From Candidatus Zymogenus saltonus (GTDB lineage Bacteria; Desulfobacterota; Zymogenia; Zymogenales; Zymogenaceae), in the NCBI GenBank assembly GCA_016929395.1, contig JAFGIX010000006.1, positions 1 through 45,623 of the forward strand: a stretch of DNA of 45,623 bases, given 5' to 3'. A model generated the notes under the pieces. The model searched no databases and had not been told where the DNA came from. It saw nothing but the letters and a program-made list of their open reading frames with translations. Positions within the stretch are counted from its first letter, which is position 1, and the number at the start of each line of letters is the position of its first letter. A program made the position numbers and the translations under genes. Below are positions 22,283 to 43,625 of the stretch, in pieces.

Positions 22283-22636
22283 CAAAGGGGGTTGGGACAA
22301 CTCGTTATTCCCTTGGGGGGCGGGGGGGCGGGACAACATCTCATTCCCTTGAGGAGCTGGGGGCTGGGACGATATGTAATCCCCTTGGGAAGCGGTGGTC
22401 GGAACAATATGTCATTCCCTTGGAAAACGGGAATCCAGACTGTCCCCACGTATGTGGGGGTGAAATATCTTTAAGGATTCCCAATCGAGTCGGGAATGAC
22501 AGTATAAACATGAATCGAGTTCGGCTGGGTGGCACTGATAAGCTCCGGTTTTTCAGCGAGACTTTTACCCCCTTTACAGGGAAAATCGAAAAAAGTAAGG
22601 ATACTTCCATAGTATTTAATAGGAGGACAGTTTACT
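22283..22636. repeat. Dispersed repeat family 1, copy A, with 36-base tandem array
   Basis: The block between mlaF and mlaD starts with four imperfect direct repeats of about 36 bases (units carrying ATTCCCTTG at 22307, 22343, 22378 and 22414). It then holds the family element: GGGAATCCAG, a hairpin CCCCAC-GTAT-GTGGGG (22444-22459), AATATCTTT, GGATTCCCAATCGAG and GGGAATGACAGTATA (ending near 22505). The same element recurs near 34.1, 35.8, 35.9 and, inverted, 42.4 kb. The last 130 bases before mlaD hold nothing I can identify. Confidence 0.85.
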
Positions 22637-33984: not shown

Positions 33985-34377
33985 TTTCACTATGTTGTTG
34001 GGGGCCGGTGGTTGGTGGTCGGGTTACTATGTAAATACTTAACAGCCAATAGAAGCTTTAAATGTCATTCCCTTAGAAAGCGGGAATCCAGAATAATGTG
34101 TCATTCCCTTGGGAAGCGGGAACCCAGCCTGTCCCCACGTATGTGGGGGCAAAATATCTTTCTGGATTCCCAATCGCGTTGGGAATGACAGAATAATAAA
34201 TCCCAATCAAGTTGGGAATGACGGTATTAGTTCCCGGTCGAGCCGGGATTGGCTTATAATCAAAAGAGATAAGAAACATATGCGCCCTGTCGATTGAAAA
34301 ATATATTTACAATTGAATCGTCCGAGCATATAATTTCCAAGATTTCCCATTTATTACTTTATTTTGCGGAGGAACTC
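33985..34377. repeat. Dispersed repeat family 1, copy B, and flanks
   Basis: From about 34058 to 34245 the block carries two GTCATTCCC...GCGGGAA units, the hairpin CCCCAC-GTAT-GTGGGG (34133-34148), AATATCTTTCTGGATTCCC and three TGGGAATGAC/GCCGGGATTG ends. It is the fullest copy in the window, in the same orientation as copies A and C. The last 130 bases before the lipoprotein gene hold only its ribosome site. Confidence 0.85.
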
Positions 34378-35741: not shown

Positions 35742-36008
35742 AAATGTCATTCCCGCGAAAGCGGGAATCCAGTGAATATCTTTCTGGATTCCCAATCAAG
35801 TTGGGAATGACAGTATAGACACCCGGCGTTGGGTGGCACAGGCAATCCGGCTTGCCAGCAGGGGTTGGGGTGATTTCTTACACCTCGAAAAACGGGAACC
35901 CAGCCTGTCCCCACGTATGTGGGGGCAAAATATCTTTCTGGATTCCCATCCGGGTTGGAAATGACAGTATAATAACTCCCAATCGAGTTGGGAATGACAG
36001 TATAGACT
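35742..36008. repeat. Dispersed repeat family 1, copies C1 and C2
   Basis: C1 (35742-35820) is the short form: ATGTCATTCCCGCGAAAGCG, GAATCC, AATATCTTTCTGGATTCCC, GTTGGGAATGACAGTATAG. C2 (about 35884-36008) has the long form with the hairpin CCCCAC-GTAT-GTGGGG (35909-35924) and two GGAATGACAGTATA ends. The last end abuts the cytochrome ATG at 36009. Confidence 0.85.
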
Positions 36009-40706: not shown

Positions 40707-41504
40707 CTATATATCGAGAACCTCGTTTATTCTGACGATCGACACCGCCCGGCCGCTCGCATCGTCAATCTCGACCAAGACGGCGTTTACGAGGGGCTTC
40801 CCCTTGGCCGAGGTCGAGAAGGCCTTTATTGCCGTCCTGAACTTCTTTATCTCCCTCTCTTTTTCGAAGCCGAGAACGGAGTTTGCGGCCCCCGCCATGC
40901 CGACGTCCGTTACAGCCGCCGTACCCAGCCTGCTGACGCTTTCATCGGCGGTCTGGACGAGGGTCCCGGAGCCGCAAAGGAGGGAGATCATCCCGTCGAG
41001 GTGTATAGTCATGGCGACCTTTTCCGCCGTGGTCTTGGCGAAGAAGTCGACGATAATAATATCCGTCTCCTTGTTTACCTCTTTTATCAACCCTCGTATC
41101 TTCGGGAAGGGATTTTCCGGGAGGACTCTGCCCATGAACGAATAGCCGACGATATTGACTATTCCCACCCTGCGCTTCTTTTCGCCCACCTCCTTGATCA
41201 ATACGCCGCTTCCGGGGCTCCCCTCAGGGAGGTTCTCCGGCCTCAATATTTCGGGCCTATTTGAGATCGCCGACTGGAGGTCCTTCTGATCCCAGACGTT
41301 CTCGCCGGTGGTTATGACGTCCACCCCCGCCTTGAAGAGCTCGTCCGCCTTCTCCCCGGTAAGTCCGGCCCCGCCTGCGGCGTAGTTACCGTTGGCGATA
41401 ACGAGATCGGGCCTATCCCCCGCCCTCTCAAGCCTCTCTATGTAGTGCGCCACCGCCTCCCTTCCCGGGGAGCCGACGACTACGCCGAAAAAGAGGAGCT
41501 TCAT
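40707..41504 (-). CDS. YmdB-like (TIGR00282) phosphoesterase homologue without metal ligands
   Basis: The 265-residue protein has the whole framework of YmdB, the dinuclear-metal 2',3'-cyclic-nucleotide phosphodiesterase, but all the metal positions have changed. The family GDIVG reads GVVVG (V8), NGENAAG reads NGNYAAG (N40, Y41), TTGNHVWD reads TTGENVWD (E68, N69), DFHAEATSEK reads DFFAKTTAEK (F155) and GTHTHVQTAD reads GSGTLVQTAD (G180, L182). The unchanged surroundings make a true pseudoenzyme far likelier than sequencing error. Its ATG overlaps the stop of the intact metallophosphoesterase gene by four bases (ATGA), so the two are made together and a regulatory or scaffold role is plausible. 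Confidence 0.9.
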   Translation of the reverse strand: MKLLFFGVVVGSPGREAVAHYIERLERAGDRPDLVIANGNYAAGGAGLTGEKADELFKAGVDVITTGENVWDQKDLQSAISNRPEILRPENLPEGSPGSGVLIKEVGEKKRRVGIVNIVGYSFMGRVLPENPFPKIRGLIKEVNKETDIIIVDFFAKTTAEKVAMTIHLDGMISLLCGSGTLVQTADESVSRLGTAAVTDVGMAGAANSVLGFEKEREIKKFRTAIKAFSTSAKGKPLVNAVLVEIDDASGRAVSIVRINEVLDI

Positions 41505-42343
41505 ATTCCCACTTTCCTGATATTCATCGTCTCGATGTTGAGCCTCGTGACTTCCTTCTTCAACCTGAAGAAGCCGAGATTGACCGCCTGGGTCCTTGCG
41601 ATCTCCGCGCTTATCACGCTCGGGTTGTGCACGTGGCCGAAAAACGAGTAGACCGGGTTGTGCCTGTTTATATATTTGGTGATGGCGTCGCTGGAGGGCT
41701 CGTTCCTCTTGGCGATGGTGTCGTAGGTCAGCTTGGTCTCGTCCGGCTTTCCGTCCGTTCTCTCCACCTCCTCGTGGGGCGGCACGTGGGTGATGATTAT
41801 ATCCGCTGGGGCAAGCTCCAGAAGCCTTCTGCCGTAAACCTCGGCGGAAACGATGCCCGGAAACTTCGGCACGTGATCGCCGCCGGGCATCCCGGAGACG
41901 AGGGCCACATTGATCCCCGGGGCCTTGACGACTCCGCTCTCGATTATCTCCGCCCTGCCGGAGACCTTTTCCTTCAATATGTCGGGGTAATCGTCGTTCC
42001 CGTAGAGGATATACGTCTCACAGACAAGAGACCTTGAGAATCTTTCATACTCCTCCTCTATCAAGGGGAGGATTTTTTCGTAGCGCTCCTCCCCGGGCGT
42101 GGTTATCTCCATAAAGGCCGTCTTTACCCTGTCGAGCCTTCCCTCGGACATCTCCTTCAGCCCTTCGATCAACTCGTCGATCGTGAAGGCCTTTGAGAGA
42201 ATGCCTTTGGAAAAATCCGTAAAGTCCATGAATATCAGGACGTCCCCGGCAATGAAAAGGGTGTCTTCTGGACCGACCAGCTTCGACAACGCCTCGAACT
42301 CCCCGTGGACATCACCCACGATAACTATTTCTCTGTCACTCAT
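41501..42343 (-). CDS. Calcineurin-like metallophosphoesterase
   Basis: The 280-residue protein has an intact dinuclear metal site: D11 and H13 in VGDVHGEF, D34 in AGDVLIF, N116 in YGNDD, H186 in ITHVPPH, and H237/H239 in FGHVHN. The GNHD motif reads GNDD, so the usual His that helps bind phosphate is Asp. It should hydrolyse a phosphoester in the cytosol; the substrate is not known. I chose the ATG at 42343 because GGAG lies seven bases before it; a further upstream ATG lies within a dispersed repeat. It is coupled by ATGA to the metal-less YmdB homologue. Confidence 0.9.
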   Translation of the reverse strand: MSDREIVIVGDVHGEFEALSKLVGPEDTLFIAGDVLIFMDFTDFSKGILSKAFTIDELIEGLKEMSEGRLDRVKTAFMEITTPGEERYEKILPLIEEEYERFSRSLVCETYILYGNDDYPDILKEKVSGRAEIIESGVVKAPGINVALVSGMPGGDHVPKFPGIVSAEVYGRRLLELAPADIIITHVPPHEEVERTDGKPDETKLTYDTIAKRNEPSSDAITKYINRHNPVYSFFGHVHNPSVISAEIARTQAVNLGFFRLKKEVTRLNIETMNIRKVGI

Positions 42344-42397
42344 TAACACTCCGCTCTTGATAGTTAAAAAATAATTTCGGCTCACACATCGTATTAC

Positions 42398-42560
42398 GTC
42401 ATTCCCAACTCGATTTGGAATCCATGCTGTCATTCCCAACTTGGCCGGGAATCTATGCTGTCATTCCCAACTTGATTGGGAATCCAGTGAATATTATTCT
42501 GGTTCCCCGCTTTCGCGGGGAGACGCCTGGATTCCCGTTTTGACGGGAACAACAATATAT
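42398..42560 (-). repeat. Dispersed repeat family 1, copy D (inverted)
   Basis: On the minus strand the family ends recur: GTCATTCCCAACTCG, GTCATTCCCAACTTGGCCGG, GTCATTCCCAACTTGATTGG and then AATCCAGTGAATATTATTCTGG. A hairpin CCCCGCTTTCGCGGGG and GGATTCCCGTTTTGACGGGAA follow. It lacks the CCCCACGTATGTGGGG hairpin of the long copies. Confidence 0.8.
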
Positions 42561-42863: not shown

Positions 42864-43625
42864 ATGAAAAGATTAATGATCGTGGCCGACGACTTTGGCC
42901 TCTCAAAAGAGATAAACAGGGGCGTCGAGATAGGCGTTAAGGCCGGCGCCCTCTCTTTCGCGTCGCTTATGGTGGACGGGGACTTTGTGGAGAACGCTGT
43001 TATGATCGCAGAGAAGAACCCGGCGTTTACCGTGGGACTCCACGTCGATGTGAGCGGGCTCCTCGGGATTGATGATGCCGTGTGGCGGGGGGCGAGGGAA
43101 GAGAGCCTGATGAAGCTTGTCTCGGAAGGTTCCACCGTCGCCGCATTTATCGAGGAATGCCGGCGGCAGATAAGGAAATTTTTCGATCTCGGATTTGCCC
43201 CTACGTTTATCAATACCCACTTCCACATTCACACCCTCCCCCCGTTTTTCAAGGAATTCGTCGAGCTATCAGCCATCAACGGCTTCAAATATATGAGGCT
43301 TTCCAAGACGACCCCCCTCCTCTCCCACCCCGATATTCCGATCGAGGGGAGGCTCTCGGACATGACGGAAATCCTTGATAGGAGGGGCATCGCCCACCCG
43401 GATGAATATATCGTAGGCAACTTTCACTTTTTCCCGCCGGAGCTGGAGCATGAGGTGACCGAAATAATGGTTCACCCGACGGACTCCCCCGGAGGCAAGG
43501 GCGGGCCGATCTCAACAATCTATTACCTCGACCTAATAAAGCTCCTCTCGTGGGGTGATTACTATAGATACGTGCGATACCGGGGGCAATTCGAGGAGCT
43601 GACCATAAACGGTACGGTAAGATGA
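42864..43625 (+). CDS. YdjC/HpnK-type carbohydrate deacetylase family protein
   Basis: The protein of 253 residues belongs to the ChbG/HpnK (YdjC) family of metal-dependent deacetylases acting on N-acetylated sugars or hopanoid glycolipids. The motifs are present: ADDFGLS with Asp9/Asp10, GLHVDVSG with its His near residue 62, and NTHFHIHTLPP near 125. Near the end lies MVHPTD. I start it at the ATG at 42864; the TTG at 42828 lies in the promoter's -35 box. No hopanoid or chitobiose genes are nearby, so the substrate is open. The stop overlaps the ATG of the minimal zincin by ATGA. Confidence 0.87.
   Translation: MKRLMIVADDFGLSKEINRGVEIGVKAGALSFASLMVDGDFVENAVMIAEKNPAFTVGLHVDVSGLLGIDDAVWRGAREESLMKLVSEGSTVAAFIEECRRQIRKFFDLGFAPTFINTHFHIHTLPPFFKEFVELSAINGFKYMRLSKTTPLLSHPDIPIEGRLSDMTEILDRRGIAHPDEYIVGNFHFFPPELEHEVTEIMVHPTDSPGGKGGPISTIYYLDLIKLLSWGDYYRYVRYRGQFEELTINGTVR

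Follow-up and report, generated by a model that had tools for sequence, protein, structure and literature searches.

The stretch of DNA analysed here, referred to as the window, comprises 45,623 nucleotides of Candidatus Zymogenus saltonus (contig JAFGIX010000006.1) and carries on its reverse strand two overlapping genes that we read as a Zymogenaceae-specific module, in which a metallophosphoesterase (MPE) enzyme would be produced together with a non-catalytic paralogue of YmdB that probably binds it. We place the probability of this reading at roughly 55%. An earlier, sequence-only reading of the window had proposed a pairing of enzyme and pseudoenzyme, and this is right in kind: the ligands predicted for the MPE are intact, the paralogue has lost its metal centre, and the two genes adjoin in all four family genomes. 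The combination of an MPE with a metal-less YmdB is new and lineage-restricted, while pseudoenzymes of the MPE fold are as such already known.

The upstream gene encodes a calcineurin-type metallophosphoesterase of 280 amino acids (PF00149) and extends on the reverse strand over positions 41501-42343, with its ATG start at 42343 preceded by a GGAG (42349-42352, reverse strand) that, from its position, is a probable ribosome-binding site. The YmdB paralogue, of 265 amino acids (PF13277), occupies 40707-41504 of the same strand, and the stop codon of the first gene and the start codon of the second are combined in an ATGA at 41504-41501, exactly as originally described. Three copies of a 25-base palindromic repeat, GTCATTCCCAACTTGATTGGGAATC, lie immediately upstream of the MPE gene (42398-42484). 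Together with variants in which changes in one arm are matched in the other, this REP-like interspersed element is present in nine copies in the window (also at 22476-22500, 34165-34222, and 35787-35998) and about 149 copies in the genome, against none for a reversed-pattern control. Further upstream is a divergent ydjC-like gene (42864-43625, forward strand). As ydjC-like genes are also found near the pair in two other genomes (G002 and G003), a loose functional link is possible.

The MPE is recognized by PF00149 with an E-value of 1.5e-6 and 29.2 bits (cut-off 21.5), and scores of the upstream protein with this model range from 29 to 37 bits. The residues D11, H13, D34, N116, H186, H237, and H239, which the sequence-only reading had picked out as its metal site, were all found and are invariant across the four Zymogenaceae genomes that carry the pair; the corresponding motifs (D-x-H, GD, GN, H, and G-H-x-H) are equally present, with invariant ligands, in a relative from Nonomuraea. 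We infer that the protein would carry out phosphodiesterase or phosphatase chemistry on some phosphoester. The usual GNH(D/E) motif reads GNDD in the Zymogenaceae proteins, leaving no histidine after GN, and GNVD in the Nonomuraea relative. This histidine is the general acid in many members of the superfamily, though not in all, and GNxD variants are known in other MPE groups. Between the D34 and N116 motifs lies an insertion of approximately 70 residues (37-105; 42029-42235, reverse strand) that is common to all four orthologues and the Nonomuraea relative, and that is predicted to be mainly helical by a low-confidence AlphaFold2 model (pLDDT 47.5) read for secondary structure only. The models of both proteins were built from three input rows and reached pLDDT values of 47-48, so that they inform on secondary structure and give no basis for judging an interface. 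A Foldseek search with the low-confidence MPE model (pLDDT 47.5) gave no significant match, and a profile search of the PDB with the MPE alignment gave no credible relative.

The second protein belongs to the YmdB family over its entire length. It matches PF13277 across 253 of 253 positions (1.1e-79, 267.7 bits) and aligns end to end with Bacillus subtilis YmdB (4B2O; phmmer 2.8e-55). The metal centre of the B. subtilis protein is formed by D8, E39, N40, N67, H150, H175, and H177, with H68 and D71 as catalytic residues (PMC10406935). At the eight canonical positions (D-E-N-N-H-H-H-H) the window protein has V8, N40, Y41, E68, N69, F155, G180, and L182, retaining none of the eight, while D72 corresponds to D71 of B. 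subtilis and is a glycine in one orthologue. Across the four genomes the residues at these positions are V/V/V/V, N/N/D/N, Y/H/H/F, E/E/Q/E, N/N/N/N, F/Y/F/F, G/G/G/G, and L/L/H/L. The claim that every metal ligand had been replaced therefore holds for the window and two other genomes, and for seven of eight positions in G002, where the eighth is still histidine. Each of these positions is at least 95% conserved in a set of 63 canonical YmdB sequences drawn from Desulfobacterota, Bacillota, Fusobacteriota, and Alphaproteobacteria, in whose alignment 48 positions reach that level. Of the 40 other, equally conserved positions 34 are kept in all four paralogues, against none of the eight ligands (Fisher p = 8e-6), a loss that goes beyond chance. 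As judged from the alignment, the losses fall largely within the active site, and the few other conserved positions lost include R121 and E157. The paired copies have in turn acquired residues seldom or never found in canonical YmdB (L92, P129, N131, P134, E218, K227, and F229), and the emptied pocket is mostly aromatic or aliphatic at positions 8, 41, 155, and 182, with the polar N40, E68, and N69. With TIGR00282 the four paired copies score 224, 223, 208, and 204 bits, all below the NCBI cut-off of 254, compared with 280.5 bits for the canonical YmdB of the same genome as the window. The paralogue thus characterized probably lacks phosphodiesterase activity.

It had further been suggested that V8, N40, Y41, E68, and F155 would define a subfamily if they recurred in orthologous pairs, and that orthologues with restored ligands, or a pair that was not conserved, would speak against the proposal. 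The Zymogenaceae set consists of four genomes in three genera: the window genome, one congener (G001), and two from other genera (G002 and G003). The pair is conserved in all four, with the MPE first and the ATGA overlap in each, and the search for orthologues with restored ligands across these genomes returned nothing beyond the single histidine of G002. The proposed list of substitutions serves only in part as a subfamily signature: V8 recurs in 4/4 genomes, and E68 (Q in the other), F155 (Y), and N40 (D) in 3/4 each, while a different residue is often found at position 41 (Y, H, H, F in the four genomes); N69 and G180, each 4/4, are further recurrent substitutions. Identities to the window proteins in the three other genomes are 71, 55, and 53% for the MPE and 72, 54, and 54% for the paralogue, and both proteins span 49-72% across the four genomes. 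Between the window genome and its congener the paralogue has a pN/pS of 0.24, compared with 0.23 in the MPE and 0.16 in canonical YmdB, with pS near saturation, values that indicate purifying selection on a paralogue that is constrained rather than decaying. The neighbours of the pair are common within the genus and otherwise differ across the three genera; they include feoB-like, MobA-like, and thioredoxin-like genes, among others, with a ydjC-like gene near the pair in three genomes (names inferred from the sequences). Outside the genus the pair is thus the constant element amid changing neighbourhoods.

Profile searches of 395 Desulfobacterota genomes gave MPE matches of comparable strength only in the four Zymogenaceae, a wider MPE profile adding one weak partial match. 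YmdB was found by the paralogue profile in 232 of these genomes, where the four paired copies scored 479-497 bits and the next best, a canonical YmdB, 261 bits. With the MPE confined to the same four genomes, the two proteins co-occur perfectly, and neither was found by these searches in the approximately 390 other Desulfobacterota genomes. A motif scan of the whole GTDB for the MPE returned only two Zymogenaceae loci; it relied on a pair of short motifs and would overlook more divergent proteins like the Nonomuraea relative, so that its result is no proof of absence from other phyla. Scanned viral contigs gave no match, and a search for work on Zymogenia in the literature collection used found nothing. 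The relative in Nonomuraea gerenzanensis (L081:5998-6765) is full length and 29% identical over 258 aligned positions. Its gene is flanked by fatty-acyl-CoA-synthetase-like and SRPBCC/ArsA-like genes, and no YmdB-like neighbour was found within 12.7 kb, from which it follows that the MPE lineage in general does not need a YmdB partner. This relative lacks annotation in the collection used, and the 11.9 Mb record that contains it is labelled a plasmid.

Each Zymogenaceae genome also has a separate, ordinary YmdB. In the window genome this second copy has all ligands canonical and is located after rny and before a tyrosyl-tRNA-synthetase-like gene; canonical YmdB follows rny in nearly all loci examined, whereas the paired copies follow the MPE, far from rny-ymdB. 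Among the matches listed, the only other genome with two YmdB copies is G321, a Desulfobacterota genome outside the family, which was considered as a possible further case of the paralogue and rejected, both copies being canonical and rny-linked. Both of these (L072, L073) are accompanied by a separate rny on the upstream side and a separate tyrS-like gene on the downstream side, suggesting either that a block has been duplicated or that the bin is mixed. Plasmid pVV8 of Thermus thermophilus HB8 (L087) was also observed to carry a YmdB; it retains every ligand, has a very long branch, and adjoins a gene for an extracellular solute-binding protein. In the tree the paired copies group in a single clade (100/100 and 100/98) with a long stem. 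Their placement relative to the canonical Zymogenaceae copies reaches a support of no more than 83/73, and a topology holding the eight Zymogenaceae YmdB sequences together, outgroups included, was not rejected (p-AU 0.57). The paralogue may plausibly have arisen by duplication inside the Zymogenaceae lineage.

The retention of both types of YmdB in every Zymogenaceae genome raises the question of whether the paralogue acts on its canonical counterpart, forming mixed oligomers or competing for partners in a dominant-negative or modulating manner, with the link to the MPE reflecting shared expression only. A YmdB-like assembly surface could have survived, as the positions that define the fold are kept. 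However, the strict coupling to the MPE, with the ATGA in 4/4 genomes and at a distance from the rny-ymdB locus, points to the MPE, and the identity of 38-44% between paired and canonical copies is low for a mixed oligomer; we consider a canonical YmdB target rather unlikely.

We prefer to think of the paralogue as a subunit. Translational coupling, to judge from the overlap, would make the paralogue along with the MPE, and the paralogue would then bind the MPE as a non-catalytic subunit; once bound, it may stabilize the MPE, shape access of the substrate, or control the enzyme through its emptied and remodelled pocket. There is precedent for such a role, since proteins of the MPE fold are known as non-catalytic subunits: Dpb2, which has an inactivated phosphoesterase domain, serves as a subunit of DNA polymerase epsilon (PMC7308368), and VPS29 provides an MPE-fold scaffold in retromer (PMC9636581). 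Three points count against the module: overlapping genes need not encode interacting proteins, the Nonomuraea MPE manages with no YmdB neighbour, and the pair is present in no more than four genomes, belonging to three genera. Another explanation is that the two proteins are co-expressed and act separately in the same pathway, the paralogue being a stand-alone binder of a nucleotide, RNA, or another protein. The co-occurrence and the overlap demonstrate that the two are linked in function, not that they touch, and the gene-order link between canonical YmdB and RNase Y, found nearly everywhere examined, makes a non-catalytic role in RNA metabolism conceivable. Nothing argues directly against separate action, but a conserved overlap is more typical of subunits, and we regard this explanation as unlikely.

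New chemistry in the old pocket would be a different fate for the same protein. The lasso-peptide epimerase MslH, whose calcineurin-like fold is structurally closest to YmdB, has a rearranged metal site and a changed function (PMC10406935), demonstrating that such a fold can turn to another reaction, and the old metal site of the paralogue holds the polar E68, N40, and invariant N69. MslH nevertheless kept a metal, a set of metal-binding residues, and the catalytic His/Asp dyad, whereas the paralogue keeps neither, having lost the ligand set and the catalytic histidine, and even D72 gives way to glycine in one orthologue; we find a new enzymatic activity decidedly improbable. Decay of the paralogue as a mere duplicate, or a local accident behind its loss of ligands, is very improbable and was rejected on its conservation across four genomes: its rate of evolution is a little above that of canonical YmdB (pN/pS 0.24 vs 0.16) and its stem in the tree is long, but full-length frames persist in three genera at approximately 50% identity under strong constraint, the substitutions recur, and what has been lost lies largely in the active site.

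Within the preferred reading, of an MPE with a non-catalytic YmdB subunit, the earlier suggestion of a nucleotide sensor or allosterically controlled phosphodiesterase can be put more specifically. Nucleotide sensing by the paralogue is possible, and the demetallated YmdB might use its vacated active site to sense a nucleotide and switch an unrelated MPE on or off, a proposal that we view as speculative and doubtful. An allosteric subunit derived from YmdB would be a role that, as far as could be found, is undescribed for this family in the literature.

YmdB is widespread and has global effects in B. subtilis, and to our knowledge no physiological substrate has been settled for it. A paralogue stripped mainly of the metal centre separates the catalytic function of the YmdB fold from any non-catalytic one, and together with the MPE it makes a small system, expressible in E. 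coli, for studying whether the paralogue binds its partner or a ligand and whether it controls the MPE.

Compared with known systems, the paralogue resembles the YmdB/TIGR00282 family (PF13277; 4B2O, 1T70, 2CV9) in full-length homology, conserved non-ligand positions, length, and architecture, and differs in that the eight metal-centre residues are replaced in the window and that it sits beside an MPE rather than beside rny. The Zymogenaceae MPE shares with the stand-alone MPE of Nonomuraea gerenzanensis its ligand motifs, helical insertion, and GN-x-D in place of GNH(D/E), and differs in having a YmdB paralogue as neighbour where the Nonomuraea gene has none. In Dpb2, among the B subunits of DNA polymerases, and in VPS29, the calcineurin fold serves as a subunit or scaffold and not as a phosphoesterase, much like the role proposed for the paralogue; these are unrelated subfamilies within eukaryotic complexes, and their partner is not another MPE.
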